From the NCBI GenBank assembly GCA_017305665.1, contig JAFKKH010000010.1, positions 159,234-223,233 on the forward strand: a DNA stretch of 64,000 bases, given 5' to 3'. The notes under the pieces are model-generated. The model saw nothing but the letters and a program-made list of their open reading frames with translations, ran no database searches and was not told the origin of the DNA. The number at the start of each line of letters is the position of its first letter. The first letter of the stretch is position 1. Shown piece after piece: positions 4,126-26,167 of this stretch. Made by a program: the position numbers and the translations under genes. Origin of the DNA: Hyphomicrobiales bacterium. GTDB lineage: Bacteria > Pseudomonadota > Alphaproteobacteria > Rhizobiales > Xanthobacteraceae.

Positions 4126-4204
4126 GATTCGCACGTTGCAAGCAACGTTGCACGAGTTGGGAAGCGTCGCCGGCATCAGTCGCCCCCGCTGACGGCACTT
4201 TCCG

Positions 4205-4229
4205 GGGGGCGGGCCAAAAGCCCGTCCCC
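4205..4229. repeat. GC-rich hairpin downstream of degP
   Basis: Ten-base arms (4205-4214 and 4220-4229) pair with a single G-T position around a 5-base CAAAA-type loop. It lies 80 bp after the degP stop and about 50 bp before the T-tailed hairpin at 4277. No T-run follows directly, so it may be a 3' stabilising structure rather than a terminator. Confidence 0.55.
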
Positions 4230-4276
4230 TTGAGCTACCTTCCGGTGGAATCAGCCCCCCTCCGTCGGAAGGACTA

Positions 4277-4317
4277 GGGGCGGTGGAGTGCCCCCAAGCT
4301 TCACCGCCCCGCTTTTT
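4277..4317 (+). terminator. Rho-independent terminator after degP
   Basis: GGGGCGGTG at 4277-4285 pairs perfectly with CACCGCCCC at 4302-4310 across a 16-base loop, followed by GCTTTTT. It ends about 75 bp before the start of the response regulator, which suggests that the two-component system has its own promoter in the remaining short gap. Confidence 0.65.
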
Positions 4318-15736: not shown

Positions 15737-16168
15737 TCAAGCGATCATGCGCTCGCGTGTATTCGCATTGTCCGCTTCGAACGCCGCGCTGATATCCCTG
15801 ATGCTGATCACGCCGATCAGGGTGTGGTTGTCGATCACGGGCATGTGCCGGATATGGTGACTGTTCATTAGGTGACGGACATGCTCGAGCGTGTCCGTTG
15901 ATGTGCAGGAGATCAGTTGCTGCACCGAAATCAGGCTAGACACCTTGAGATTGAGGCCGGCCGTTCCATGCGCGGCGACAGCGCGAACGACGTCGCGCTC
16001 CGTGAACATTCCCACCGCGGTGTTGCCTTCGGTTCGCACCACGTCTTTCACCACCAGCGCGCTGATATTGCTGGCGCGGAGCAATTGAGCCGCGATCGCG
16101 ACGGTTTCATTCATTCGCACCGTGACAATTCGGGTGCCTTTCTTGCGCAGGATGTCTTCGACTTTCAT
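15737..16168 (-). CDS. Two-CBS-domain protein, probable oxalate-regulon member
   Basis: A 143-residue protein made of two CBS domains, about 7-62 and 75-135, and nothing else. Such Bateman modules bind adenosyl ligands such as AMP, ATP, NADH or SAM and modulate partner proteins. The motif GMFTERDVVRAVA in the first half and GVISIRDISAAFE in the second are typical. The start ATG at 16168 is preceded by GAGG. A perfect copy of the TGGYAT-N5-ATRCCA operator is centred 60 bp upstream, the same spacing seen before the gntR and MFS genes, so it is predicted to be under the same control as oxalate uptake. Its binding partner is unknown. Confidence 0.88.
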   Translation of the reverse strand: MKVEDILRKKGTRIVTVRMNETVAIAAQLLRASNISALVVKDVVRTEGNTAVGMFTERDVVRAVAAHGTAGLNLKVSSLISVQQLISCTSTDTLEHVRHLMNSHHIRHMPVIDNHTLIGVISIRDISAAFEADNANTRERMIA

Positions 16169-16219: not shown

Positions 16220-16236
16220 TGGTATACATTATACCA
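16220..16236 (-). promoter_or_regulatory. GntR-type operator, copy upstream of the CBS gene
   Basis: TGGTAT-ACATT-ATACCA, perfect inverted repeat (arms extend by one T/A pair on each side to 16219-16237). It is centred 60 bp upstream of the CBS start codon. It matches the TGGYAT-N5-ATRCCA consensus at 12 of 12 arm positions. Confidence 0.7.
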
Positions 16237-16311
16237 AATGTCAACGCGCAATTGTCGCGCAAGCGGGATTTGGCAAGGCGGGGCGCAGGAGTCGGTCTTC
16301 TCCAGACAAAC

Positions 16312-16340
16312 AAAAAGGGCGCACCAGGTGCGCCCTTTTT
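16312..16340 (-). terminator. Terminator after the first OFA/MFS carrier gene
   Basis: AAAAAGGGCGCACC at 16312-16325 and its complement at 16327-16340 flank one central base. This gives a strong stem with a T-run on the minus strand, beginning 18 bp after the MFS stop codon. Its symmetry means it could act on both strands. Confidence 0.85.
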
Positions 16341-16358
16341 CGGAAATCAGATTTTCGA

Positions 16359-17654
16359 CTATTCGGCGGGCTGCCCCACGGCACCCTTGTTCTCGGATGC
16401 ACTGATCGATAGCCGCATCGGTCGCACTACAAACAGCGCCAGCGCCACCACGATGAAGTTCATGATCGCGGCAACAATGAACACCGCGTGCCAGCTCCCG
16501 GTGTGGGTTTTCAGCACGTTCGCGATCGGCACCAGGAAGGCCGATAGTCCCTTCGCGGTGTAGAGCAGGGCGGTGTTGGTGGTCGCGTATTTCGGCCCGA
16601 ACATATCCGTGCAGGTCGAGGGAAACAGGCTGAAGATCTCGCCCCAGGTAAAGAAGATCAGCGCCGCGCAGATCACGAAGGTCCATGGCGTGGTGCCTGC
16701 GGTTCCAAGAAGCCAGAACGCGAGACCGCCGGCCGTGAATGCGATCGCCATGGTGTATTCGCGGCCGATTTGATCGGACACCCATCCGAAGAAAGGTCGT
16801 GCGCTGCCGTTTGCGAGGTTGTCGATAACGCCGGACACGATCAGGGTTGTTCCACCAAACAGGATGACCGATTGGGCGACACCGTAGTCCTTTGCGATCA
16901 GCGCGACCTGTGCGGCCACCATCAGACCGCTGGCCGACACCATCACGAACATCAGGTAAAGCAGCCAGAAGATCGGTGAACGAAGCATTTGGCCGGGCGT
17001 GCTGCTGGTCTTCGACTGCAAAACCTTGACGGCCGAAGCGGACGGCACCTCGCGCGGAAGCGGCGGACGCAGAAACCAGGCGAGCACGAAAATGATGATG
17101 CCCTGGCCAATCGCGAACCAGAAGAATGTCGCCGCATAACCCGATGATGCGATCATCTTCTGAATTGGAATGACGGTTAGCGCAGCGCCGGCACCAAATC
17201 CTGCCGCCGTCAGACCGACAGCGAGGCCGCGCCGATCCGGAAACCATTTGACGGCGTTGCCGACGCAGGTCGCATAGATTGCACCGGCGCCTACGCCCGA
17301 CAGCGCTGCACCGAAGTAGAGCATCTCAAGTGACGAAGCGAATGAGTTGATGAGCCAGCCGGCCGAGCCAAAGATTGCGCCGAAAGCAACGGCAAGCTTC
17401 GGGCCGCGCGGTCCGAGCGAGTCCACGATCCATCCCTCAAGGGGCGTCAGCCATGTCTCGAGCGCGATAAAGATACTGAAGGCGACCTGGATCTGGGCGA
17501 TCTCCCAGGAGTGCGCCTTGGCCATGGGGCCGACGAAGTAAGTCCAGCCGTATTGCAAGTTGGCGATCGTCGCCATGCAGACGAGGCCGATGATCAACTG
17601 CATCCAGCGGAAGCTGTTTGATGGAGCTGATGCGCCTGTTGTTTGCGAATCCAT
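16359..17654 (-). CDS. MFS transporter, OFA (oxalate/formate antiporter) type, copy 1
   Basis: Major facilitator carrier of 431 residues with 12 predicted membrane helices, resembling the OxlT-type oxalate:formate antiporter group. The start MDSQTTG (ATG at 17654) has GGAGG about 5 bp upstream; longer in-frame starts lie in the promoter region. Family-like segments are NLQYGWTYFVGP in helix 1, GVGAGAIYATCVGNAVKWFPDRRGLA in helices 4-5 and the cytoplasmic WVSDQIGREYTM loop. It sits in the oxc/frc neighbourhood beside a second carrier with about the same architecture, which supports oxalate or another dicarboxylate as substrate. It has its own terminator and a probable operator 83 bp upstream, so it forms a separate transcription unit. 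Confidence 0.87.
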   Translation of the reverse strand: MDSQTTGASAPSNSFRWMQLIIGLVCMATIANLQYGWTYFVGPMAKAHSWEIAQIQVAFSIFIALETWLTPLEGWIVDSLGPRGPKLAVAFGAIFGSAGWLINSFASSLEMLYFGAALSGVGAGAIYATCVGNAVKWFPDRRGLAVGLTAAGFGAGAALTVIPIQKMIASSGYAATFFWFAIGQGIIIFVLAWFLRPPLPREVPSASAVKVLQSKTSSTPGQMLRSPIFWLLYLMFVMVSASGLMVAAQVALIAKDYGVAQSVILFGGTTLIVSGVIDNLANGSARPFFGWVSDQIGREYTMAIAFTAGGLAFWLLGTAGTTPWTFVICAALIFFTWGEIFSLFPSTCTDMFGPKYATTNTALLYTAKGLSAFLVPIANVLKTHTGSWHAVFIVAAIMNFIVVALALFVVRPMRLSISASENKGAVGQPAE

Positions 17655-17736
17655 CTTTCCTCCCCGCGCTTTGTTGGAATGTGGCGTATCGCCGCAATTA
17701 TTGTGACTTATCGTCGCAAGCGCTGTGAAGGAAATC

Positions 17737-17753
17737 TGGTATATCATATTCCA
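17737..17753 (-). promoter_or_regulatory. GntR-type operator, copy upstream of MFS carrier 1
   Basis: TGGTAT-ATCAT-ATTCCA matches the consensus TGGYAT-N5-ATRCCA at 11 of 12 arm positions. It is centred 91 bp before the start codon of the carrier, slightly further than the other copies. Confidence 0.6.
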
Positions 17754-17865
17754 AAATGCAAGCGGGAATCCTGCCCGACACGAAGACATTGGTGGTGCAT
17801 TGCAATATCGATGTGCCGATTAGCGACGCGCCGGAGTCTGACGGTTGCGGAACCGGGTCTGCAAT

Positions 17866-17902
17866 GGAAACGCGCCCGTCGCGGTGCGACGAGCGCGTTT
17901 CC
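17866..17902 (-). terminator. Hairpin terminator after MFS carrier 2
   Basis: Seventeen-base arms (17866-17882 and 17886-17902) pair at 16 positions around a 3-base loop, 16 bp past the stop codon of carrier 2. The minus-strand arm ends in CGTTTCC rather than a long T-run, so termination may be less than complete. Confidence 0.65.
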
Positions 17903-17918
17903 TGAGAGTGCAGTCGGG

Positions 17919-19208
17919 TTAGGCCGTTACTGCCTTGGCTACCACGGTCTTGCGCCATGGCTTGAGCACGATGATCGCAAGCAGCGAGGCAAGAATATTT
18001 GCCGCTGCGGCGAGCAGGAACACCCCGTCCCAACTCCCGGACGACTGCTGCATGTAATTGCCGAGCGGGACCAACAGCGATGCCGTGCCCTTCGCGGTGT
18101 AGAGCAGGCCGGCATTGGTGGTCGCGAACTTGGCGCCGAACGTATCGGTGCAGGTCGACGGGAACAGCGAGTAGATCTCGCCCCAAGCGAAGAACACGAA
18201 GCCGGACAGGATCACGAACGCGATCGGGTTATGGCCCCACAGGTACAGCATGTAGATGCCGATACCTTCGAAGCCGAAGGCAAGGAACATGGTGTTCTCG
18301 CGCCCGATCTTGTCCGACACCCATCCGAAGAATGGACGGGTCAGGCCGTTGAGCACACGATCGATCGTGGCCGCGAACGTTACCGTCGTCATCGTCAGCC
18401 CCATGAGAGTGACAGGCACCGCTGCGATCTTCCAGTCGGCCGCGATCGGTTTCAGGTTCGCGGTGACGAGCAAGCCGCCGGCACCGACCAGGACGAACAT
18501 CAGATACATCAGCCAGAAGATGGGCTGTCGAATGACTTCGGATGGTCCGTAGTTGCGCCGGCTCTGCATGATGGTCGCGTTCTGCAGCGCCTCGGGCACC
18601 TGTCCGGCTTTGGGAGCCACCAGGAAGAACGCGAGAATGATGACGACGATTCCCTGGCCCAATCCGAAATGAAGGAAGGTGCTTTGGAAGCCGTCACTCT
18701 TGATCATCGACTGGATAGGCGCGACGGTAAGCGCCGAACCCGCGCCGAAGCCTGCCGCCGTGATTCCAGCAGCGAGACCGCGTTTGTCGGGAAACCATTT
18801 CAGCGCGTTGCCGACACACGTTCCATACACGGCGCCGGCGCCGATGCCGGCGATGATCATCCCGAAATAAAAGCCGCCGAGGTTCGCCGCGAACGAATTA
18901 ATAGCCCAGCCTGCGCCGCAGAGGATGCCACCGATAAGCACAATGAGGCGAGGGCCGTATCGGTCCACGAACCAGCCCTCGACCGGCACCAGCCAGGTTT
19001 CGAACAACACGAAGAGAGTGAAGGCCCACTGGATCGACGCGCGATCCCATCCGAATTTTTTTTGGATGTCGGGGACAAAGAATGTCCAGCCGTATTGATA
19101 GTTGGCAATCATGACCATCGCACCAACACCGATGGCCAATTGCGTCCAGCGATAGCCGTCGCTGACGCGTGCGGCGCTCGGCGCCGCCCCATGAACTGTG
19201 TCTGTCAT
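17919..19208 (-). CDS. MFS transporter, OFA (oxalate/formate antiporter) type, copy 2
   Basis: Carrier of 429 residues with 12 predicted helices, clearly paralogous to copy 1. It shares the helix 1 pattern NYQYGWTFFVPD, the GIGAGAVYGTCVGNALKWFPDKRGLA segment and the WVSDKIGRENTM loop. ATG at 19208 was chosen because GGGAGCG precedes it; a TTG four codons upstream would overlap that ribosome site. It probably exchanges oxalate for formate or takes up oxalate, inferred from the frc and oxc genes nearby. An operator copy is centred 62 bp upstream and a strong hairpin follows the stop, so it is transcribed alone. Confidence 0.87.
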   Translation of the reverse strand: MTDTVHGAAPSAARVSDGYRWTQLAIGVGAMVMIANYQYGWTFFVPDIQKKFGWDRASIQWAFTLFVLFETWLVPVEGWFVDRYGPRLIVLIGGILCGAGWAINSFAANLGGFYFGMIIAGIGAGAVYGTCVGNALKWFPDKRGLAAGITAAGFGAGSALTVAPIQSMIKSDGFQSTFLHFGLGQGIVVIILAFFLVAPKAGQVPEALQNATIMQSRRNYGPSEVIRQPIFWLMYLMFVLVGAGGLLVTANLKPIAADWKIAAVPVTLMGLTMTTVTFAATIDRVLNGLTRPFFGWVSDKIGRENTMFLAFGFEGIGIYMLYLWGHNPIAFVILSGFVFFAWGEIYSLFPSTCTDTFGAKFATTNAGLLYTAKGTASLLVPLGNYMQQSSGSWDGVFLLAAAANILASLLAIIVLKPWRKTVVAKAVTA

Positions 19209-19261
19209 TGTCGCTCCCAAGCTGCGCTTCTGTTCCGGACGTGAGCGCTAGCCGGCGATTT

Positions 19262-19278
19262 TGGTATCCGATATGCCA
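19262..19278 (-). promoter_or_regulatory. GntR-type operator, copy upstream of MFS carrier 2
   Basis: TGGTAT-CCGAT-ATGCCA fits TGGYAT-N5-ATRCCA at all 12 arm positions and is centred 62 bp before the start codon. Confidence 0.65.
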
Positions 19279-19364
19279 CCGAGCAAGCATTTCGAGCTTC
19301 AAAACGTCATCCGTGCGCAAATGTCGCAGGGGCGGTCCGGAGTTTGCAGAAGTGGTTTGCCAAA

Positions 19365-19390
19365 AGAAAAAGGCCCCGAAAACCGGGGCC
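19365..19390 (-). terminator. Rho-independent terminator after the 45-residue gene
   Basis: GGCCCCG at 19372-19378 and CGGGGCC at 19384-19390 form a stem with a 5-base loop. On the minus strand it is followed by TTTTTCTTTT, a classic terminator. It lies 88 bp past the stop codon of the small gene, the only minus-strand gene that it can serve. Confidence 0.85.
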
Positions 19391-19477
19391 AAGTCTGGGA
19401 GGAAGTCTGAAGATGAGGCATCAAGCCTGAACCCGGCGGAAGCCTTGGCCGCGCGCCGAGTGGCTGAACCTACTGAG

Positions 19478-19615
19478 TTACAGGCCGAAATACGGGACGT
19501 CGCCGTTGCGCACCGAAGCCTCGTGCCAGGTCAACAGGAGACGGTCGAGGGAGGCCATGAAGCGGGCGAAGATCGACGGGGCCGGGTTGAAGGCGGTGGA
19601 GGTGGTATCGGACAT
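19478..19615 (-). CDS. Small 45-residue protein of unknown function
   Basis: Short gene starting at MSDTTSTAFNPAP (ATG at 19615) with GGGAA about 5 bp upstream, ending in RNGDVPYFGL. The middle (FARFMASLDRLLLTWHEA) could form an amphipathic helix; there is no signal peptide or clear membrane segment. Three things argue that it is expressed: a ribosome site, a strong terminator downstream on the same strand, and an operator-like sequence centred 64 bp upstream. It vaguely recalls other short alphaproteobacterial proteins of the DUF1127 kind, but the typical arginine-rich core is missing. No function is proposed. Confidence 0.6.
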   Translation of the reverse strand: MSDTTSTAFNPAPSIFARFMASLDRLLLTWHEASVRNGDVPYFGL

Positions 19616-19670
19616 TGGGTTCCCTTTCGGAGGGCAGCGATCACGCTGCGTTTTGATCTGGGACCAATCT

Positions 19671-19687
19671 ATGTATACCAGATGCCA
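19671..19687 (-). promoter_or_regulatory. Weaker GntR-type operator upstream of the small gene
   Basis: On the minus strand the site reads TGGCAT-CTGGT-ATACAT. It matches TGGYAT-N5-ATRCCA at 10 of 12 arm positions, with the last two bases of the proximal arm differing. It is centred 64 bp before the start codon, the same spacing as at gntR. Confidence 0.45.
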
Positions 19688-19759
19688 GAAACAATTCATT
19701 TGTTTGCATAGCAGCATAGTTTCTTTTGCATCGCGGCATGATCGGACCTTCCCATAACG

Positions 19760-19785
19760 AAAAAGACCGCCGGTCTGACCGGCGG
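19760..19785 (-). terminator. Terminator after frc
   Basis: CCGCCGGTC at 19767-19775 and GACCGGCGG at 19777-19785 are complementary around one base. On the minus strand the stem is followed by TCTTTTTCG. It starts 28 bp after the frc stop and so ends the gntR-oxc-frc transcript. Confidence 0.8.
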
Positions 19786-19813
19786 CCTTTATTCGGAAGC
19801 GAAAAAGCTTCGA

Positions 19814-21091
19814 CTATTCTGCGGCTTGCTTACGCGGCGGATCGAGTGCGCCGGAGTCGTGGATATCCGCGACCTGGTGGTCGCTGAATCCAAGAACCTC
19901 GCGCAGGATCTCGTCGGTGTGTTCGCCGAGCAGCGGAGAGCGCTTCACGTCCGCCGGGCTGTCGGACAGCTTGATCGGATTGCCGACCGACAGATACTTG
20001 CCCCGGGTCGGGTGATCGACCTCGACCACTGTGCCGGTTGCACGCAGCGACTTGTCTTCCGAAAGCTCCTTCATCGACAGGATCGGACCGCAGGGGATGT
20101 CATCCTTGTTGAGGATGTCCATGGCCTCGAACTTGGTCTTGGTCATGGTCCATTGTTCGATGCGTGCGAAGATTTCGTTGAGACGCGGCAGCCGCGCCAC
20201 CGGCTTCGCGTAGTCCGGATGCGTCTTCCAGTCGGGCTCGCCGATGACGTCGCAGATCTTCTCCCACACCGGCGCCTGGGTGATGAAATAGATGTAGGCG
20301 TTGGGATCGTTCTCCCAGCCCTTGCACTTCAGGATGCGGCCGGGTTGTCCGCCACCGGAATCGTTGCCGGCGCGCGGTGTGGCTTCGCCGAACGGGATGC
20401 CTTCGCCGAACTGGCTGTATTCCTTGAGCGGGCCGTGGGCGAGACGCTGCTGATCGCGCAGCTTGACCCGGGCCAGATTGAGCACGCCGTCCTGCATTGC
20501 CGCGGTGACGCGCTGGCCCTTGCCTGAGTGCGTGCGGTGATAGAGCGCGGTGACGATACCGAGCGCGAGATGCAATCCCGTGCCGCTGTCGCCGATCTGC
20601 GCGCCGGTGACGAGTGGGGGACCGTCGCGGAAGCCGGTGGTCGAGGCCGCGCCGCCGGTGCACTGGGCGACGTTTTCGTAAACCTTGCAGTCCTCGTAGG
20701 GGCCAGGGCCAAAACCCTTGATCGACGCGACGATCATCTTCGGGTTGATGCTCTGGATCTTCTCCCACGGAAAGCCCATGCGATCGAGAACGCCGGGACC
20801 GAAATTCTCCACCAGCACGTCGCACTGCTTGATCAGCGCGGTCAGGACTTCCTTGCCCTTCGGGTTCTTGGTGTCGAGGGTGATCGACCGCTTGTTGTGG
20901 TTCAGCATGGTGAAATACAGGCTGTCCACGTTCGGGATATCCTGCAACTGACCGCGGGTGATGTCGCCGACGCCCGGCCGTTCGATCTTGATCACATCGG
21001 CGCCGAACCATGCCAGAAGTTGCGTGCAGGTCGGCCCTGACTGGACATGGGTGAAATCCAGAATGCGAACGCCCTTCAGCGCCTGTGACAT
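19814..21091 (-). CDS. frc: Formyl-CoA:oxalate CoA-transferase
   Basis: Class III (CaiB/BaiF) CoA-transferase of 425 residues that moves CoA from formyl-CoA to oxalate, giving oxalyl-CoA and formate. The N-terminus [20 protein letters not shown], the catalytic aspartate in [10 protein letters not shown] (near residue 169) and the glycine-loop GGGQPG near residue 260 are as in characterised Frc proteins, and the length is the family length. It follows oxc by 86 bp on the same strand and a terminator ends the unit. The pairing with oxc makes the oxalate assignment firm. Confidence 0.95.
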
Positions 21092-21177
21092 GGTCTTGCT
21101 CCTGTATCGTATCTGCTCCTGCCGGAGCAGGAAGGAATAAAGGACGGGCCTGTAATCGTCCCGTCCCGACGAAAGAT

Positions 21178-22914
21178 CTATTTCTTCTTCAACTGGCTTT
21201 GCGGATTGAGATTGCCGATGCGGCCGCTCTCGCTGCCGGCTGCCGGATCGAGCACGGCGTTGATCAGTGTCGGCTTGCCGCTGTCCATTGCCGCATTGAC
21301 CGCGCGCTTCAATTCGTCCGGGGACGTCGCATTGACGCCGACGCCGCCGAAAGCCTCCATCATCTTGTCGTAGCGAGCGCCCCTGACGAAGACGGTGGTG
21401 GCCGGATCGGAACCGGCCTTGTTCACGTCGGTGCCGCGATAGATGCCGTCATTGTTGAAGATGACGATGCAAACCGGCAGGTTGTAGCGGCAGATGGTTT
21501 CGATCTCCATGCCGGAAAAGCCGAAGGCGCTGTCGCCTTCAACGGCGAGCACGGGCTTGCCGGTCTCGACCGCGGCGGCGATCGAATAACCCATCCCGAT
21601 GCCCATGATGCCCCAGGTGCCGACATCGATGCGCTTGCGCGGCTGGTAGATATCGACGATGCCGCGCGCGAGATCGAGGGTGTTGGCACCTTCGTTCACC
21701 AGGATGGCGTCCGGCCGTTCCTTGATGATGGTCCGCAGCACGCCGAGCGCGCCGTGATAGTCCATCGGCGAGTTGTTGTTCATCAGCCGCGGCGCCATCT
21801 TGGCGACGTTCTCTTCGCGCTTTTTGGCGACAGCACCCGTCCAGTCGGAGGGCGGCGCGGACCAGTTGTTGCCCATGCCGGCGAGCAAGGCAGACACGCA
21901 TGAGCCGATGTCGCCGACCACAGGCGCAACGATCTCGACGTTCGAGTCCATTTCCTTGGGCTCGATGTCGATCTGGATGAATTTCTTCGGCGCGCTGCCC
22001 CAGGTCTTGCCCTTGCCGTGCGAGAGCAGCCAATTCAGCCGCGCGCCGATCAGCATCACGACATCGGAGTCTTTCAGCACCGTCGAGCGCGCGGCGCCTG
22101 CGCACTGCGGATGGGTGTCGGGAAGGAGACCCTTCGCCATGCTCATCGGCAGGAACGGAATGCCGCTTTTCTCGACCAGTTGGCGGATGGCATCATCCGC
22201 CTGCGCGTAGGCCGCGCCCTTGCCGAGAATGATCAACGGCTTCTTAGCGCTCTTGAGAACGTCGAGTGCGCGGCGGACTGAATCGGGCGCTGGAAGCTGG
22301 GCGGGAGCCGCATCGATGACCTTCACCAGCGACTTGCGACCGGCTTCGGCATCCATCACCTGGCCGAACAGTTTTGCCGGTAGATCGAGATAAACGCCGC
22401 CGGGACGCCCCGAGACCGCGGCGCGGATCGCGCGGGCGAGGCCAATGCCGATATCCTGCGCATGCAGCACGCGGAACGCCGCCTTGCACAGCGGCTTGGC
22501 GATCGCGAGCTGATCCATTTCCTCATAGTCGCCCTGCTGGAGGTCGACGATCTCGCGCTCGGACGATCCCGAGATCAGGATCATCGGAAAGCAGTTGGTC
22601 GTGGCGTGGGCAAGCGCGGTCAGGCCGTTGAGGAAGCCCGGAGCCGACACGGTAAGGCAGATGCCCGGCTTCTTGGTGAGGAAGCCCGCGATCGACGCCG
22701 CGTAGCCGGCGTTCTGCTCATGACGAAACGACAGCACGCGAATGCCCGCGGCCTGCGCCATGCGGCCGAAGTCGGTGATCGGAATACCGGGCACGCCGTA
22801 GATCGTGTTGAGGCCGTTAAGCTTGAGCGCGTCGATGACGAGGTTGAAACCGTCGGTCAGTTCGCGCTCGGCTTCAACGGCATTTGCAGTCATGCTCTGT
22901 ACGGTTGCGGACAT
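21178..22914 (-). CDS. oxc: Oxalyl-CoA decarboxylase
   Basis: Thiamine-diphosphate enzyme of 578 residues that decarboxylates oxalyl-CoA to formyl-CoA, the CO2-releasing step of oxalate breakdown. It has the N-terminal pyrimidine-binding domain with the catalytic glutamate region ([13 protein letters not shown]), a central domain at about 205-340, and the C-terminal diphosphate-binding motif starting GDSAFGFSG and ending in NNDGIYRG. The lysine-rich tail (QSQLKKK) is typical of Oxc. It lies 61 bp downstream of gntR and upstream of frc. No separate operator is visible in that gap, so gntR-oxc-frc is probably one operon. Confidence 0.96.
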
Positions 22915-22975
22915 TCCGCTAGTCTCCCTGATCTCGTGACGGACGACTTCGTCGTCTTCTTGTTATCGTCAGCGG

Positions 22976-23707
22976 TTATGTGAACAATTCTTGGCCATGG
23001 GCCTCGACATAGGCCGCCAGTCCAAGTGTGTGGTCGCGCGCGCGCTTTTCGGCGAGTTCTGTGTTGCGTTCCTCGAGTGCCTCGATGATCGCCATGTGTT
23101 CGGGCAGCGAGACCGCGGTGCGGTCGGTGCGTCCGATGGTCAACTGACGGTAGCCGCGCACGTGCAGCAAGATGTCATTGGTCATGTCGACCAGCGTCGG
23201 CGACTCACTCAGCGAGATCAACGCCTGATGGAAGGCAATGTTCGCCTTCGAGTATTCCTCGACGTGATCCTGGGGCAGGCGATCCTTGTTGAAGTCCTTG
23301 AAGAAGTCGCGCAGCGCCGAAATGTCCTTTTTTCGCGCGGTCGTCGTGATCAGCCGGGCGGCCATGCTTTCGAGCGCGGCCCAGGCGCGGATCATGTCGA
23401 CGATCTCGTTTTTGGTTCGGCGCACGACGACGATGCCGCGGCGCGGCACTGTTTTCACAAGGCCGTCCTGCTCGAGCATCGCGATCGCTTCGCGGATTGG
23501 AGTGCGGCTGACACCAAGACGTTCCGACAGTGCGCGCTCATCGAGCATCACGGGCTCGGGCGTCGTGTAGATATCCATCTTCAAAATGGCTTCCTTCAAG
23601 GCGTCGTACGCCTTGTTCTTGAAGCTCATTTCCGGTGCGATCCGGACGATGGCGATATCTGCCTCGGCCATTGCGGGAGACGCCTTGGTTGATTTCATAT
23701 CGGACAT
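22976..23707 (-). CDS. GntR-family transcriptional regulator with FCD domain, probable oxalate regulator
   Basis: DNA-binding regulator of 243 residues starting at MSDMKSTK (ATG at 23707, AGGAG 9 bp upstream). A winged helix-turn-helix occupies about 28-100, with the recognition region ALSERLGVSRTPIREAIAMLEQ and wing PRRGIVVV. The C-terminal all-helical FCD ligand domain (about 110-235) keeps histidines in IAFHQALI and EHMAIIEAL that usually bind a metal and an organic acid. It is first in the oxc-frc operon and a perfect 17-bp operator is centred 64 bp upstream, consistent with autoregulation. The inducer (oxalate, oxalyl-CoA or formyl-CoA) is a guess. Confidence 0.9.
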   Translation of the reverse strand: MSDMKSTKASPAMAEADIAIVRIAPEMSFKNKAYDALKEAILKMDIYTTPEPVMLDERALSERLGVSRTPIREAIAMLEQDGLVKTVPRRGIVVVRRTKNEIVDMIRAWAALESMAARLITTTARKKDISALRDFFKDFNKDRLPQDHVEEYSKANIAFHQALISLSESPTLVDMTNDILLHVRGYRQLTIGRTDRTAVSLPEHMAIIEALEERNTELAEKRARDHTLGLAAYVEAHGQELFT

Positions 23708-23762
23708 GACAAAGCTCCTAGGGAAGGAACTTTGTAATACCAGATTAGCGTAGGATATTTTT

Positions 23763-23779
23763 TGGCATACCAAATGCCA
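23763..23779 (-). promoter_or_regulatory. GntR-type operator upstream of gntR-oxc-frc
   Basis: On the minus strand TGGCAT-TTGGT-ATGCCA, perfect 6-base arms, centred 64 bp before the gntR start. The same 17 bases recur exactly at 23844-23860 in the divergent promoter region. Confidence 0.75.
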
Positions 23780-23843
23780 GGATGTCAAGATATCCGTATT
23801 TTCCAGATGCCGACGTCAATGGCAGTCTTGACAACATCCATTC

Positions 23844-23860
23844 TGGCATACCAAATGCCA
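23844..23860 (+). promoter_or_regulatory. GntR-type operator, identical second copy in the divergent region
   Basis: Exact duplicate of the 17-bp site at 23763, 81 bp away in the same orientation. It is centred 186 bp before the acyl-CoA synthetase start and 145 bp before the gntR start. It may control the plus-strand promoter or allow looping between two bound dimers. The rest of the 330-bp divergent region (23708-24037) holds no gene. Confidence 0.75.
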
Positions 23861-24037: not shown

Positions 24038-26167
24038 ATGTCTCAATCCAAAGATGCAGTTCGCAAGATTCTCGATGCGGTCAAGGCGGACAAGCGCACG
24101 AGTCTGACAGCACCCGAAGGCAAGCTGGTCTGCGACGCCTACGGCATTCCGGTGCCCGGTGAGGGCGTCGCGAAGTCGGCCGGCGAGGCGGCGAAACTCG
24201 CTTCCGGCATGGGCTTTCCGGTGGTGATGAAAATCGTCTCGCCGGACATCCTGCACAAGACCGAGGCCGGCGGTGTTATTGTGGGCGTCAAGACTGCGGC
24301 GGATGCCGAAAAGGCCTACGACACCATTCTGGCGAACGCCAAAAAATACAAGGCAGACGCCAAGATTGAGGGCGTGCAGGTTCAGCAGATGCTGGCCGGG
24401 GGAACCGAGGTCATCGTCGGCTCGATCACCGATGGCTCGTTCGGGAAACTCGTGGCGTTCGGTCTCGGCGGTGTGCTGGTCGAAGTGCTGAAGGACGTCA
24501 CGTTCCGTTTGGCGCCGGCGACCAAGCAGGACGCGCTGTCGATGCTCGACGGCATCCAGGCCAAGGAAATGCTGAAGGGCGTGCGTGGCGGCGATCCTGT
24601 CAACCGTGAGGCGCTGGCCGACGTGATCGTGAAGGTCTCGCAGCTCGTCACCGACTTCCAGGAAATCGTCGAGCTCGATCTCAATCCCGTCTTCGCCACC
24701 AAGAAGGATGCGGTGGCCGCCGACGTGCGTATCGTCGTCGACTTCAACTACAAGCCACGGCCGGCGCCGCGCCCGACCGCTGAAATCGTGGCTGCGATGA
24801 ATCGCATCATGATGCCGAAATCGGTCGCCGTCGTCGGTGCGTCCTCCGAAGAGGGCAAGATCGGCAACTCCGTGATGAAGAACCTCATCAACGGCGGCTA
24901 CAAGGGTGACATCTATCCGATCCACCCGAAGGCCGACGAGATCATGGGCCGCAAGGCCTACAAGAGCGTCAAGGACGTGCCGGGCGTGATCGATGTCGCG
25001 GTGTTCGCGATTCCAGCGAAGTTCGTTGCCGGCGCGCTGGCCGAATGCGGTGAGAAGAAAATTCCGGGTGCCGTTCTGATTCCGTCGGGCTTTGCCGAGG
25101 CCGGTGCGCCGGAACTGCAGGCGGAAATTGTCGAGGTCGGCAAGAAATACGACATCCGCCTGATGGGGCCGAATATCTACGGCTTCTACTACACGCCATC
25201 GAATCTCTGTGCGACATTCTGTACCGCGTACGACGTGAAGGGCTCGGCCGCGCTGTCGTCGCAGTCCGGCGGTATCGGCATGGCGATCATCGGATTCTCG
25301 CGCTCGGCCAAGATGGGCGTGTCGGCGATTGTTGGCCTCGGCAATAAGTCCGACCTCGACGAGGACGATCTGCTGGCGTTCTTCGAGCAGGATCCGAATA
25401 CGAGCGTCGTCGCGATGCATTGCGAAGATTTGAAGGATGGTCGCGCCTTCGCCACCGCCGCCAAGCGCGTCGCGGAGAAGAAGCCTGTGATCGTGCTGAA
25501 AGCGGGCCGCACATCCGCTGGTGCGAAGGCTGCCGCCTCACACACCGGTGCGCTTGCCGGCAACGACAAGATCTATGAGGACGTCCTGAAGCAGTCAGGC
25601 GTCATTCGTGCGCGCTCGCTGCGGCAGTTGCTCGATTTCGCGCGTGGCGTGCCCGTGCTGCCAACACCGAAGGGCGAGAACGTCCTCATCATTACCGGCG
25701 CCGGTGGCTCGGGTGTGCTGCTGTCGGACTCAGTTGTCGACAACGGGTTGTCGCTGATGGCAATGCCGAAGGATCTCGACGCGGCGTTCCGGAAATTCAT
25801 TCCGCCGTTCGGCGCTGCGGGTAATCCTGTCGATATCACTGGCGGTGAGCCGCCGATCACCTACGTCAATACGGTCAAGCTCGGCCTCACGGACGATCGC
25901 ATTCATTCGCTGATCCTCGGCTATTGGCACACCATCGTCACGCCGCCGATGGTGTTTGCGAAGAACATGGTCGAGGTGAAGAACGAAATGAAAGCCAAGG
26001 GTATCGAGAAGCCGATCGTGGCGTCGCTTGCCGGCGACATCGAGGTGGAAGAGGCCGCCGAATATCTCTACCAGAACGGCATCCCGGCCTACGCCTACTC
26101 CACCGAAATCCCGGTTGAGGTTCTGGCCGCCAAATACAAGTGGGCGCGGGGCGCGGGTCTGCTCTGA
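24038..26167 (+). CDS. Acyl-CoA synthetase, ADP-forming (ATP-grasp plus CoA ligase fusion)
   Basis: Single-chain NDP-forming acyl-CoA synthetase of 709 residues. The start MSQSKDAV (ATG at 24038) has AAGGAGGAA upstream. Domain order is ATP-grasp (about 10-225), then CoA-binding Rossmann domain (from VAVVGASSEEG, about 260-350), then ligase domains. The phospho-histidine H502 lies in ASHTGALAG. So the beta-type part precedes the alpha-type part, the reverse of many fused bacterial versions. The enzymes interconvert acyl-CoA + ADP + Pi and acid + ATP + CoA. Placement divergent from gntR-oxc-frc, with an operator between, suggests a role in oxalate or formate activation or in recovering ATP from formyl-CoA. 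The substrate cannot be read from sequence. Confidence 0.88.
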   Translation: MSQSKDAVRKILDAVKADKRTSLTAPEGKLVCDAYGIPVPGEGVAKSAGEAAKLASGMGFPVVMKIVSPDILHKTEAGGVIVGVKTAADAEKAYDTILANAKKYKADAKIEGVQVQQMLAGGTEVIVGSITDGSFGKLVAFGLGGVLVEVLKDVTFRLAPATKQDALSMLDGIQAKEMLKGVRGGDPVNREALADVIVKVSQLVTDFQEIVELDLNPVFATKKDAVAADVRIVVDFNYKPRPAPRPTAEIVAAMNRIMMPKSVAVVGASSEEGKIGNSVMKNLINGGYKGDIYPIHPKADEIMGRKAYKSVKDVPGVIDVAVFAIPAKFVAGALAECGEKKIPGAVLIPSGFAEAGAPELQAEIVEVGKKYDIRLMGPNIYGFYYTPSNLCATFCTAYDVKGSAALSSQSGGIGMAIIGFSRSAKMGVSAIVGLGNKSDLDEDDLLAFFEQDPNTSVVAMHCEDLKDGRAFATAAKRVAEKKPVIVLKAGRTSAGAKAAASHTGALAGNDKIYEDVLKQSGVIRARSLRQLLDFARGVPVLPTPKGENVLIITGAGGSGVLLSDSVVDNGLSLMAMPKDLDAAFRKFIPPFGAAGNPVDITGGEPPITYVNTVKLGLTDDRIHSLILGYWHTIVTPPMVFAKNMVEVKNEMKAKGIEKPIVASLAGDIEVEEAAEYLYQNGIPAYAYSTEIPVEVLAAKYKWARGAGLL

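Follow-up and report, generated by a model that had tools for sequence, protein, structure and literature searches.

Conserved operators point to a GntR-controlled oxalate regulon that may reach beyond its gene cluster

How are the genes for bacterial oxalate use brought under common control? The question is raised by a 64,000-nucleotide stretch of a Hyphomicrobiales genome (Xanthobacteraceae; contig JAFKKH010000010.1 of assembly GCA_017305665.1), here called the window, that encodes an oxalate degradation cluster whose oxalyl-CoA decarboxylase (oxc), formyl-CoA transferase (frc) and oxalate/formate antiporter equivalogs all score above cut-off (TIGR03254, TIGR03253 and, twice, TIGR04259). The cluster also encodes an FCD-type GntR regulator (22976-23707) and carries six copies of a 17-bp inverted repeat, TGGYAT-N5-ATRCCA. 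A sequence-only reading had proposed that the six sites are the operators of one oxalate-responsive regulon bound by this GntR, which we consider likely. Comparative evidence in close relatives supports the regulon interpretation, and corrects both the extent of the regulon and the form of its operators. Scored over the 12 arm positions of the motif, the sites are as follows, named after the CBS-domain gene, the antiporter genes MFS1 and MFS2, a small open reading frame (ORF), gntR and an acyl-CoA synthetase gene.

16220..16236 (-): operator of the CBS-domain gene, two half-sites, 12/12 arm positions, TGGTATAATGTATACCA read toward the CBS gene
17737..17753 (-): operator of MFS1, two half-sites, 11/12 arm positions, TGGAATATGATATACCA read toward MFS1
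19262..19278 (-): operator of MFS2, two half-sites, 12/12 arm positions, TGGCATATCGGATACCA read toward MFS2
19671..19687 (-): variant operator of the small ORF, three half-sites, 10/12 arm positions, TGGCATCTGGTATACAT read toward the small ORF
23763..23779 (-): operator of gntR and presumably of oxc-frc too, three half-sites, 12/12 arm positions, TGGCATTTGGTATGCCA read toward gntR
23844..23860 (+): operator of the acyl-CoA synthetase gene, three half-sites, 12/12 arm positions, TGGCATACCAAATGCCA

All coordinates and arm-match counts of the sequence-only reading were borne out on re-reading. Its distances from site centre to start codon were re-measured and agree, at 60 bp for the CBS-domain gene, 91 for MFS1, 62 for MFS2 and 64 for both the small ORF and gntR; the synthetase operator is centred 186 bp from the predicted start. 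The sequence at 23763 is repeated without change at 23844.

The six sites are far beyond chance. The window contains 14 matches to the motif at up to two mismatches, compared with a mean of 4.5 (standard deviation 2.3) in shuffled sequence, where none of 100 shuffles reached 14. The motif is not equally common elsewhere in the genome, an objection that the earlier reading had itself raised: four of the five exact places in 5,025,433 bases are in the oxalate cluster. At up to one mismatch there are 32 places, five of them in the cluster, and 11 for a reversed control pattern. The off-cluster exact match (C7:77556) stands between sfsA-like and Na/H-exchanger-like genes; it was rejected as a target, having a GC-rich centre and lying about 127-131 bp from two unrelated genes, and looks like chance. 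A one-mismatch site 120 bp before an NMT1-like (PF16868) protein in a related locus (L014) was also rejected. Neither oxc nor frc has a match at up to two mismatches in the 250 bp upstream, which fits a gntR-oxc-frc operon.

Conservation was read from the window and the best 80 related oxc loci found with the Oxc query (81 sequences), searching 250 bp upstream of each orthologue. The counts omit tblastn rows below 40% identity (21 for OXC, four for MFS2, three for MFS1, two for the small ORF and one each for FRC and GNTR). Some genes match more than once per locus, with 84 frc matches from 81 loci, 81 gntR matches from 79 and 49 MFS2 matches from 37; the MFS2 tally of 48 omits L038, which has no upstream sequence, and scores L026, at a contig end, as a miss. 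An exact site precedes the synthetase in 56 of 57 cases (likewise 56 at up to one mismatch), the CBS-domain gene in 22 of 25 (23 at up to one mismatch), gntR in 59 of 81 (69) and MFS2 in 20 of 48 (43). MFS1 has a site in four of five matches including the window, each with a TGGAAT arm. Markov-resampled upstreams give at most 0.2 expected sites per gene class. The motif is thus kept at orthologous promoters in close relatives, as the sequence-only reading had expected. A separate site for oxc or frc was rejected, as no site at up to one mismatch occurs in their 81 and 84 upstreams.

All 54 gntR matches of at least 80% identity have an exact site upstream, and 53 have two. In 53 loci with two exact sites the gntR and synthetase operators are 81 bp apart, as here, in 40, between 79 and 83 bp in 52, and 71 bp in one. 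Such near-constant spacing suits cooperation between the paired sites, perhaps by DNA looping. However, 81 bp does not correspond to an integral number of helical turns, and two back-to-back promoters could also account for a constant distance. Genome G333 (L197:7445-9202) keeps the regulon and its operators with no true oxc found. Where oxc would be expected it has a thiamine-diphosphate enzyme of 25% identity, for which PRK05858 acetolactate synthase is the closest model, scored under its cut-off; L198:7497-12960 (G321) has gntR, frc and tctCBA adjoining, and no oxc was found.

The weakest of the six sites, at 19671, is by its sequence a conserved variant. Against the consensus of the sequence-only reading it scores poorly (no exact site in 32 upstreams, four at up to one mismatch), and a site nonetheless stands near -65 in all 32, with one mismatch in three loci and two in 29. 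It ends in CAT in 23, CGT in six, CCT in two and CAA in one. A box, ATGCAAACAA (19700-19709, minus strand), ends 12 bp upstream of this operator; it reads ATGCAAACA in 24 of 32 loci, with ATGCAA in 31, and is perhaps the site of a second regulator.

The sites occupy a defined register within promoter-like sequence. At the CBS-domain gene TTGACA starts 8 bp before the operator and is followed, after a 17-bp spacer, by a -10-like CAATAT. TTGCAT at MFS1 and TTGCTC at MFS2 also stand at -8 from the operator, and TTGACA stands at -9 before the gntR operator. The synthetase operator has TTGACA 16 bp upstream of it and covers the expected -10. Across the relatives TTG is found at -8 in 24/24 CBS, 4/4 MFS1 and 43/44 MFS2 sites and at -9 in 54/54 gntR sites. 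Given a 17-bp spacer, the operator's last bases already belong to the -10 hexamer, and the T at +4, the sixth position of the hexamer, is 95-100% conserved in CBS, MFS1 and MFS2. Housekeeping promoters of Bradyrhizobium japonicum have the form TTG-N(16-18)-TATA (PMC4842269). The CBS, MFS1, MFS2 and small-ORF operators thus appear to fill the -35/-10 spacer; occupation of core promoter space by the operator suggests repression.

The inverted repeat described by the earlier reading is present at all six sites, and proved incomplete as a description of the operators, which judged by sequence are of two architectures. Some sites contain a further TGG, a third half-site that occupies positions 8-10 and reads CCA on the opposite strand. 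It occurs in 54/54 sites of gntR, 55/56 of the synthetase and 32/32 of the small ORF, compared with 0/24 CBS, 0/4 MFS1 and 3/44 MFS2 sites. The regulator and synthetase genes and the small ORF would therefore have operators of three half-sites, and the transporter and CBS-domain genes operators of two. The classes may differ in affinity.

The presumed repressor belongs to the FCD (FadR/VanR) subfamily of the GntR family. Its N-terminal winged helix matches PF00392 (50.8 bits, cut-off 27) and its C-terminal region the FCD domain (PF07729, 78.7 bits, cut-off 24.3), and an AlphaFold2 model (mean pLDDT 83.3) matches FCD structures in Foldseek. It falls below the cut-offs of the NanR model NF003011 (64 bits, cut-off 260) and of PhnR_burk TIGR03338 (99 bits, cut-off 271.5). 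Glu57, Arg58, Arg68, Thr69, Arg72 and Glu73 are invariant in 35 aligned GntR sequences and were assigned by eye to the helix-turn-helix DNA-contact residues E34, R35, R45, T46, R49 and E50 of FadR. The DNA contacts of FadR are those of Table 1 in PMC4494728. Asn156, His160, His204 and His226 are invariant in the same alignment and form, by residue identity, a predicted metal site. Several gntR genes of 46-53% identity are preceded by palindromes of unchanged 17-bp geometry with arms that have drifted to TGGAAT...ATACCA and TGTAAT...ATTACA, a pattern that joint evolution of protein and site would produce; at other distant gntR loci no clear site was found.

The regulon looks wider than the sequence-only reading had proposed, seeming to reach sucC outside the cluster. 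A one-mismatch site lies 68 bp before sucC in the window genome. Of the 30 sucC loci examined in the family, those of the window genome, G035 and G236 have the site at -65 to -68, one has a one-mismatch match at -117 and 26 have none. A joint pattern of operator and sucC start, modelled on those three sites, was found in 10 of 297 genomes of the order, exactly the 10 with a GntR orthologue of at least 89% identity; in G315, from the window's own genus, GntR, oxc and the sucC site were all not found. Five related genomes of 6.1-8.0 Mb have 34 exact motif places and none for the reversed control in any genome. These comprise 22 within 18 kb of gntR, five before sucC (one per genome), four copies of an identical 17-mer and three that are unexplained.

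Elsewhere sucC lies inside the oxalate cluster itself. G312 and G319 have a second sucC there, with a one-mismatch site before it and a sucD after it (the G312 sucD is named by NCBIfam), and the Afipia loci L021, L025 and L029 also have an in-cluster sucC with a one-mismatch site; in these five loci the site is at -71 to -80. The third half-site is present in the native sucC sites of relatives and in the formate-dehydrogenase-like site described below, and was not found in the in-cluster sucC sites. In six further loci (L024, L038, L062, L075, L082 and L201) sucC is in reach and has no site within 250 bp. A SucC-like ligase of 37-39% identity adjoins gntR in seven of 20 distant loci (57-62% identity); a site between the two genes is exact in L108, L109 and L111, has one mismatch in L117 and is missing in the other three. 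The ligase at L109:1174-2414 (39% identity) scores 372 bits as a succinate-CoA ligase (cut-off 370) and 340 as a malate-CoA ligase (cut-off 604).

The genes of the cluster are predicted to encode the following.

15737..16168 (-): CBS-domain pair protein (PF00571, two stretches)
16359..17654 (-): MFS1, oxalate/formate antiporter family (TIGR04259, 523 bits, cut-off 335)
17919..19208 (-): MFS2, oxalate/formate antiporter family (TIGR04259, 644 bits, cut-off 335)
19478..19615 (-): small ORF, conserved microprotein of 45 aa (codon changes among orthologues)
19814..21091 (-): frc, formyl-CoA transferase (TIGR03253, 744 bits, cut-off 504)
21178..22914 (-): oxc, oxalyl-CoA decarboxylase (TIGR03254, 1033 bits, cut-off 739)
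22976..23707 (-): gntR, 243 aa, GntR winged helix and FCD domain, presumed repressor (PF00392, PF07729)
24038..26167 (+): acyl-CoA synthetase, ADP-forming type, ATP-grasp and succinyl-CoA-ligase domains (PF13549, PF13607, PF19045)

No NCBIfam model scores above its cut-off for the acyl-CoA synthetase, and the small ORF has no Pfam or NCBIfam match. The 33 small-ORF orthologues are 45 or 47 aa long and mostly end in RFGL or YFGL. Differences among 32 equal-length sequences number 6336, 3771 and 9039 at codon positions 1, 2 and 3, a third-position excess as expected for a translated gene. Apart from the cluster, the window carries a BjrC80 small RNA of Bradyrhizobiaceae (4155-4315, plus strand; Rfam RF02354, 140.8 bits).

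We infer the following circuit. Without oxalate, GntR would occupy each site and block RNA polymerase, from the spacer at the CBS-domain gene, MFS1, MFS2 and the small ORF and over the -10 at the synthetase. Oxalate transport, activation and decarboxylation would thereby be repressed, together with the regulator's own putative operon gntR-oxc-frc. Oxalate or a close product could bind the metal site of the FCD domain and free GntR from DNA, inducing all units together. Operators of three half-sites may bind more GntR, or bind it more tightly, than those of two, and induction could then proceed in a graded order. The circuit of this clade would also take in sucCD, so that succinyl-CoA synthetase rises with oxalate use and perhaps supplies a CoA donor. 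A fuller version of this idea is tentative, in our estimate a little short of an even chance: an FCD GntR repressor would have put succinyl-CoA synthetase, a housekeeping enzyme of the citric acid cycle, under oxalate control, through a native sucC operator in one lineage and an in-cluster sucC with an operator in others (where checked, in two genomes, it belongs to a second copy of sucCD), with succinyl-CoA donating the CoA by which the formyl-CoA/oxalyl-CoA cycle is started or replenished, and the two operator architectures ordering the response. For the related enzymes YfdE of E. coli and UctC, succinyl-CoA with oxalate yielded no product (PMC3720670).

Several observations weigh against this regulon or narrow it. 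Close relatives, many of them Bradyrhizobium, dominate the best 80 oxc loci, and since the loci are related the counts are not independent trials. Among the 27 gntR matches below 80% identity five have an exact site, 15 have one at up to one mismatch and 12 have none upstream. Thirteen of the 20 gntR loci at 57-62% identity lack a site at up to one mismatch anywhere in 2.5-3.7 kb, in several of the remaining seven the site is downstream of gntR, and L200 and L202, where a gntR of 51-58% identity adjoins oxc, have none in 19 kb. The register is only partly kept at the small ORF, with TTG at -7 in 18 of 32 sites. The -10 boxes are weak, because the first letter of the hexamer is usually C here, and that of gntR is indistinct. 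The synthetase site, 186 bp from the start codon in the window, is 33-187 bp away in relatives. The 10 genomes with the sucC site form one clade of three genera; in G301, G312, G319, G321 and G333 (GntR of 81-92% identity) the best sucC copy has no site, and G301, G321 and G333 have none on any sucC found. The formate-dehydrogenase-like gene of the window genome has only a degenerate site with two mismatches.

That the repeats are an artefact of composition or selection in a GC-rich genome is next to negligible. The 27 places at up to one mismatch outside the cluster also exceed the reversed control, and six of the 11 genome places checked in context fall within long ORFs (the sucC case excluded), as such an artefact would allow. 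The cluster sites have AT-rich cores, promoter positions and conservation, the oxc and frc upstreams are empty, and the orthologue upstream counts set against Markov resampling rule out chance or composition for close relatives. It is also improbable that another FCD-type GntR of the genome binds the sites, with the gntR beside oxc a mere passenger. A loose search with GntR gives 27 candidate stretches in the genome, of which one passes E 1e-40; FCD regulators often have related half-sites in common (PMC4494728), and the 13 distant gntR loci without a site would fit as well. Such a passenger would hardly be preceded by two exact sites in nearly all close matches, nor would the sucC site occur exactly in the sampled genomes with a close GntR; the arms drift as this GntR diverges at several loci, and G333 retains sites beside gntR with no true oxc found.

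Some FCD regulators act both ways, for example E. coli FadR, and GntR could be an activator or dual regulator at these promoters. The synthetase site is indeed far upstream of the start codon in the window. We think this role unlikely: the position of the sites, over the -10 or flanked by -35-like and -10-like boxes, fits blocking, and the near structural match Atu1419 represses from palindromes between or over -35 and -10 (PMC7797058). The identity of the inducer is less settled, and a CoA ester or one-carbon product (oxalyl-CoA, formyl-CoA, formate or glyoxylate) in place of oxalate is a serious possibility, though clearly short of an even chance. Oxalate is a strong metal chelator, which speaks for oxalate itself, as does the predicted metal site, since sites of its type accept small carboxylates, citrate in the case of Atu1419. 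In favour of a CoA ester or one-carbon product, CoA ligases and a formate-dehydrogenase-like gene are among the likely targets. Frc and Oxc also rise in Bradyrhizobium diazoefficiens on arabinose, for which the authors propose that glyoxylate is partly converted to oxalate (PMC5996035).

Known FCD regulators help to place the proposed repressor. Behind two chains of 7u5q, a GntR without a given function, the third-ranked chain in Foldseek (E about 1e-9) is Atu1419, a VanR-type FCD GntR of Agrobacterium fabrum (PDB 6z74, 6za0, 6za3, 6za7) with the same FCD fold. Its zinc ligands Asn137, His141, His192 and His214 match the four predicted metal ligands here in kind (PMC7797058), with the same N-x3-H and last H-x21-H spacing, and it takes citrate near its metal (PMC7797058). 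This resemblance makes a small carboxylate such as oxalate a natural guess for the ligand, no more. Atu1419 palindromes also lie over or between -10 and -35, two of them in the divergent promoter of its own gene (PMC7797058). However, Atu1419 is only about 25% identical to GntR, recognises a 10-bp palindrome, ATGTATACAT, controls hydroxycinnamate genes, is a tetramer and has sites 190 bp apart, compared with 81 bp here. E. coli NanR is also an FCD GntR repressor, whose half-site GGTATA resembles TGGYAT (PMC8012715). It binds as three dimers to three GGTATA repeats in one direction, an operator form not seen here, where the outer arms are inverted and the third half-site is optional.

In a survey of the FadR subfamily (Suvorova 2015, PMC4494728) the GTM-KAC consensus comes close to the 10-mer nested in the three-half-site operators. 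The usual forms of this 10-mer are TGGTATGCCA and TGGCATGCCA, which differ from NyGTM-N0-1-KACNy at one or two letters, and TGGTATACAT. The outer arm is 9 bp from the nested centre, within the 7-12 bp of the survey's extra boxes, and double-site divergons are described there too (PMC4494728). The nested TGG and palindrome are, in contrast, missing in the CBS, MFS1 and 41 of 44 MFS2 sites, and the survey makes no mention of oxalate (PMC4494728). Homologues of frc and oxc are controlled in E. coli (yfdXWUVE) by EvgA (PMC3720670), which unlike GntR is an acid-response two-component regulator.

Relatives suggest further targets. A site at up to one mismatch lies within 500 bp of tctC in 21 of 37 matches and is absent in 16; 19 of the 21 form one group at -273 to -372, the others being in L062 and L085. 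No tctCBA was found in the window's oxalate cluster, and five TctA-like genes occur elsewhere in its genome. In L045, L060 and L095 a long leader separates tctC from the operator, which lies about 290-340 bp upstream, and an Rfam search of these three loci matched no family in it; a conserved block near CCGAAAGGAGCGGATGCC occurs in the tctC leader of many Bradyrhizobium loci. The exact 17-mer TGGCATCTGGCATGCCA is common to four of the five related genomes. Its sole copy read in context, in G253, is 56 bp before a NuoF-type gene, which we take to be a formate dehydrogenase subunit. On arabinose, where Frc and Oxc of B. diazoefficiens rise, blr2316, a 'probable NADH-ubiquinone oxidoreductase chain F', was reported, in one of the two fractions, from arabinose only (PMC5996035).

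Among the matches listed from the open oxalate literature, at title and abstract level, no GntR regulator of oxc/frc was found. The regulator family, FCD GntR, is already known and the regulon would be new; the new content would be its wider reach, the two operator classes and a geometry suited to repression. Oxalotrophy bears on plant-soil carbon flow and on oxalate removal. For these processes the finding supplies a named protein and defined operators with built-in controls, oxc and frc without a site. It marks the 45-aa protein and, in relatives, the TctCBA transporter as probable parts of oxalate use. If the circuit is true, succinyl-CoA synthetase, which lies outside the pathway, should rise with oxalate. 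The proposed control circuit for bacterial oxalate use is now directly testable.

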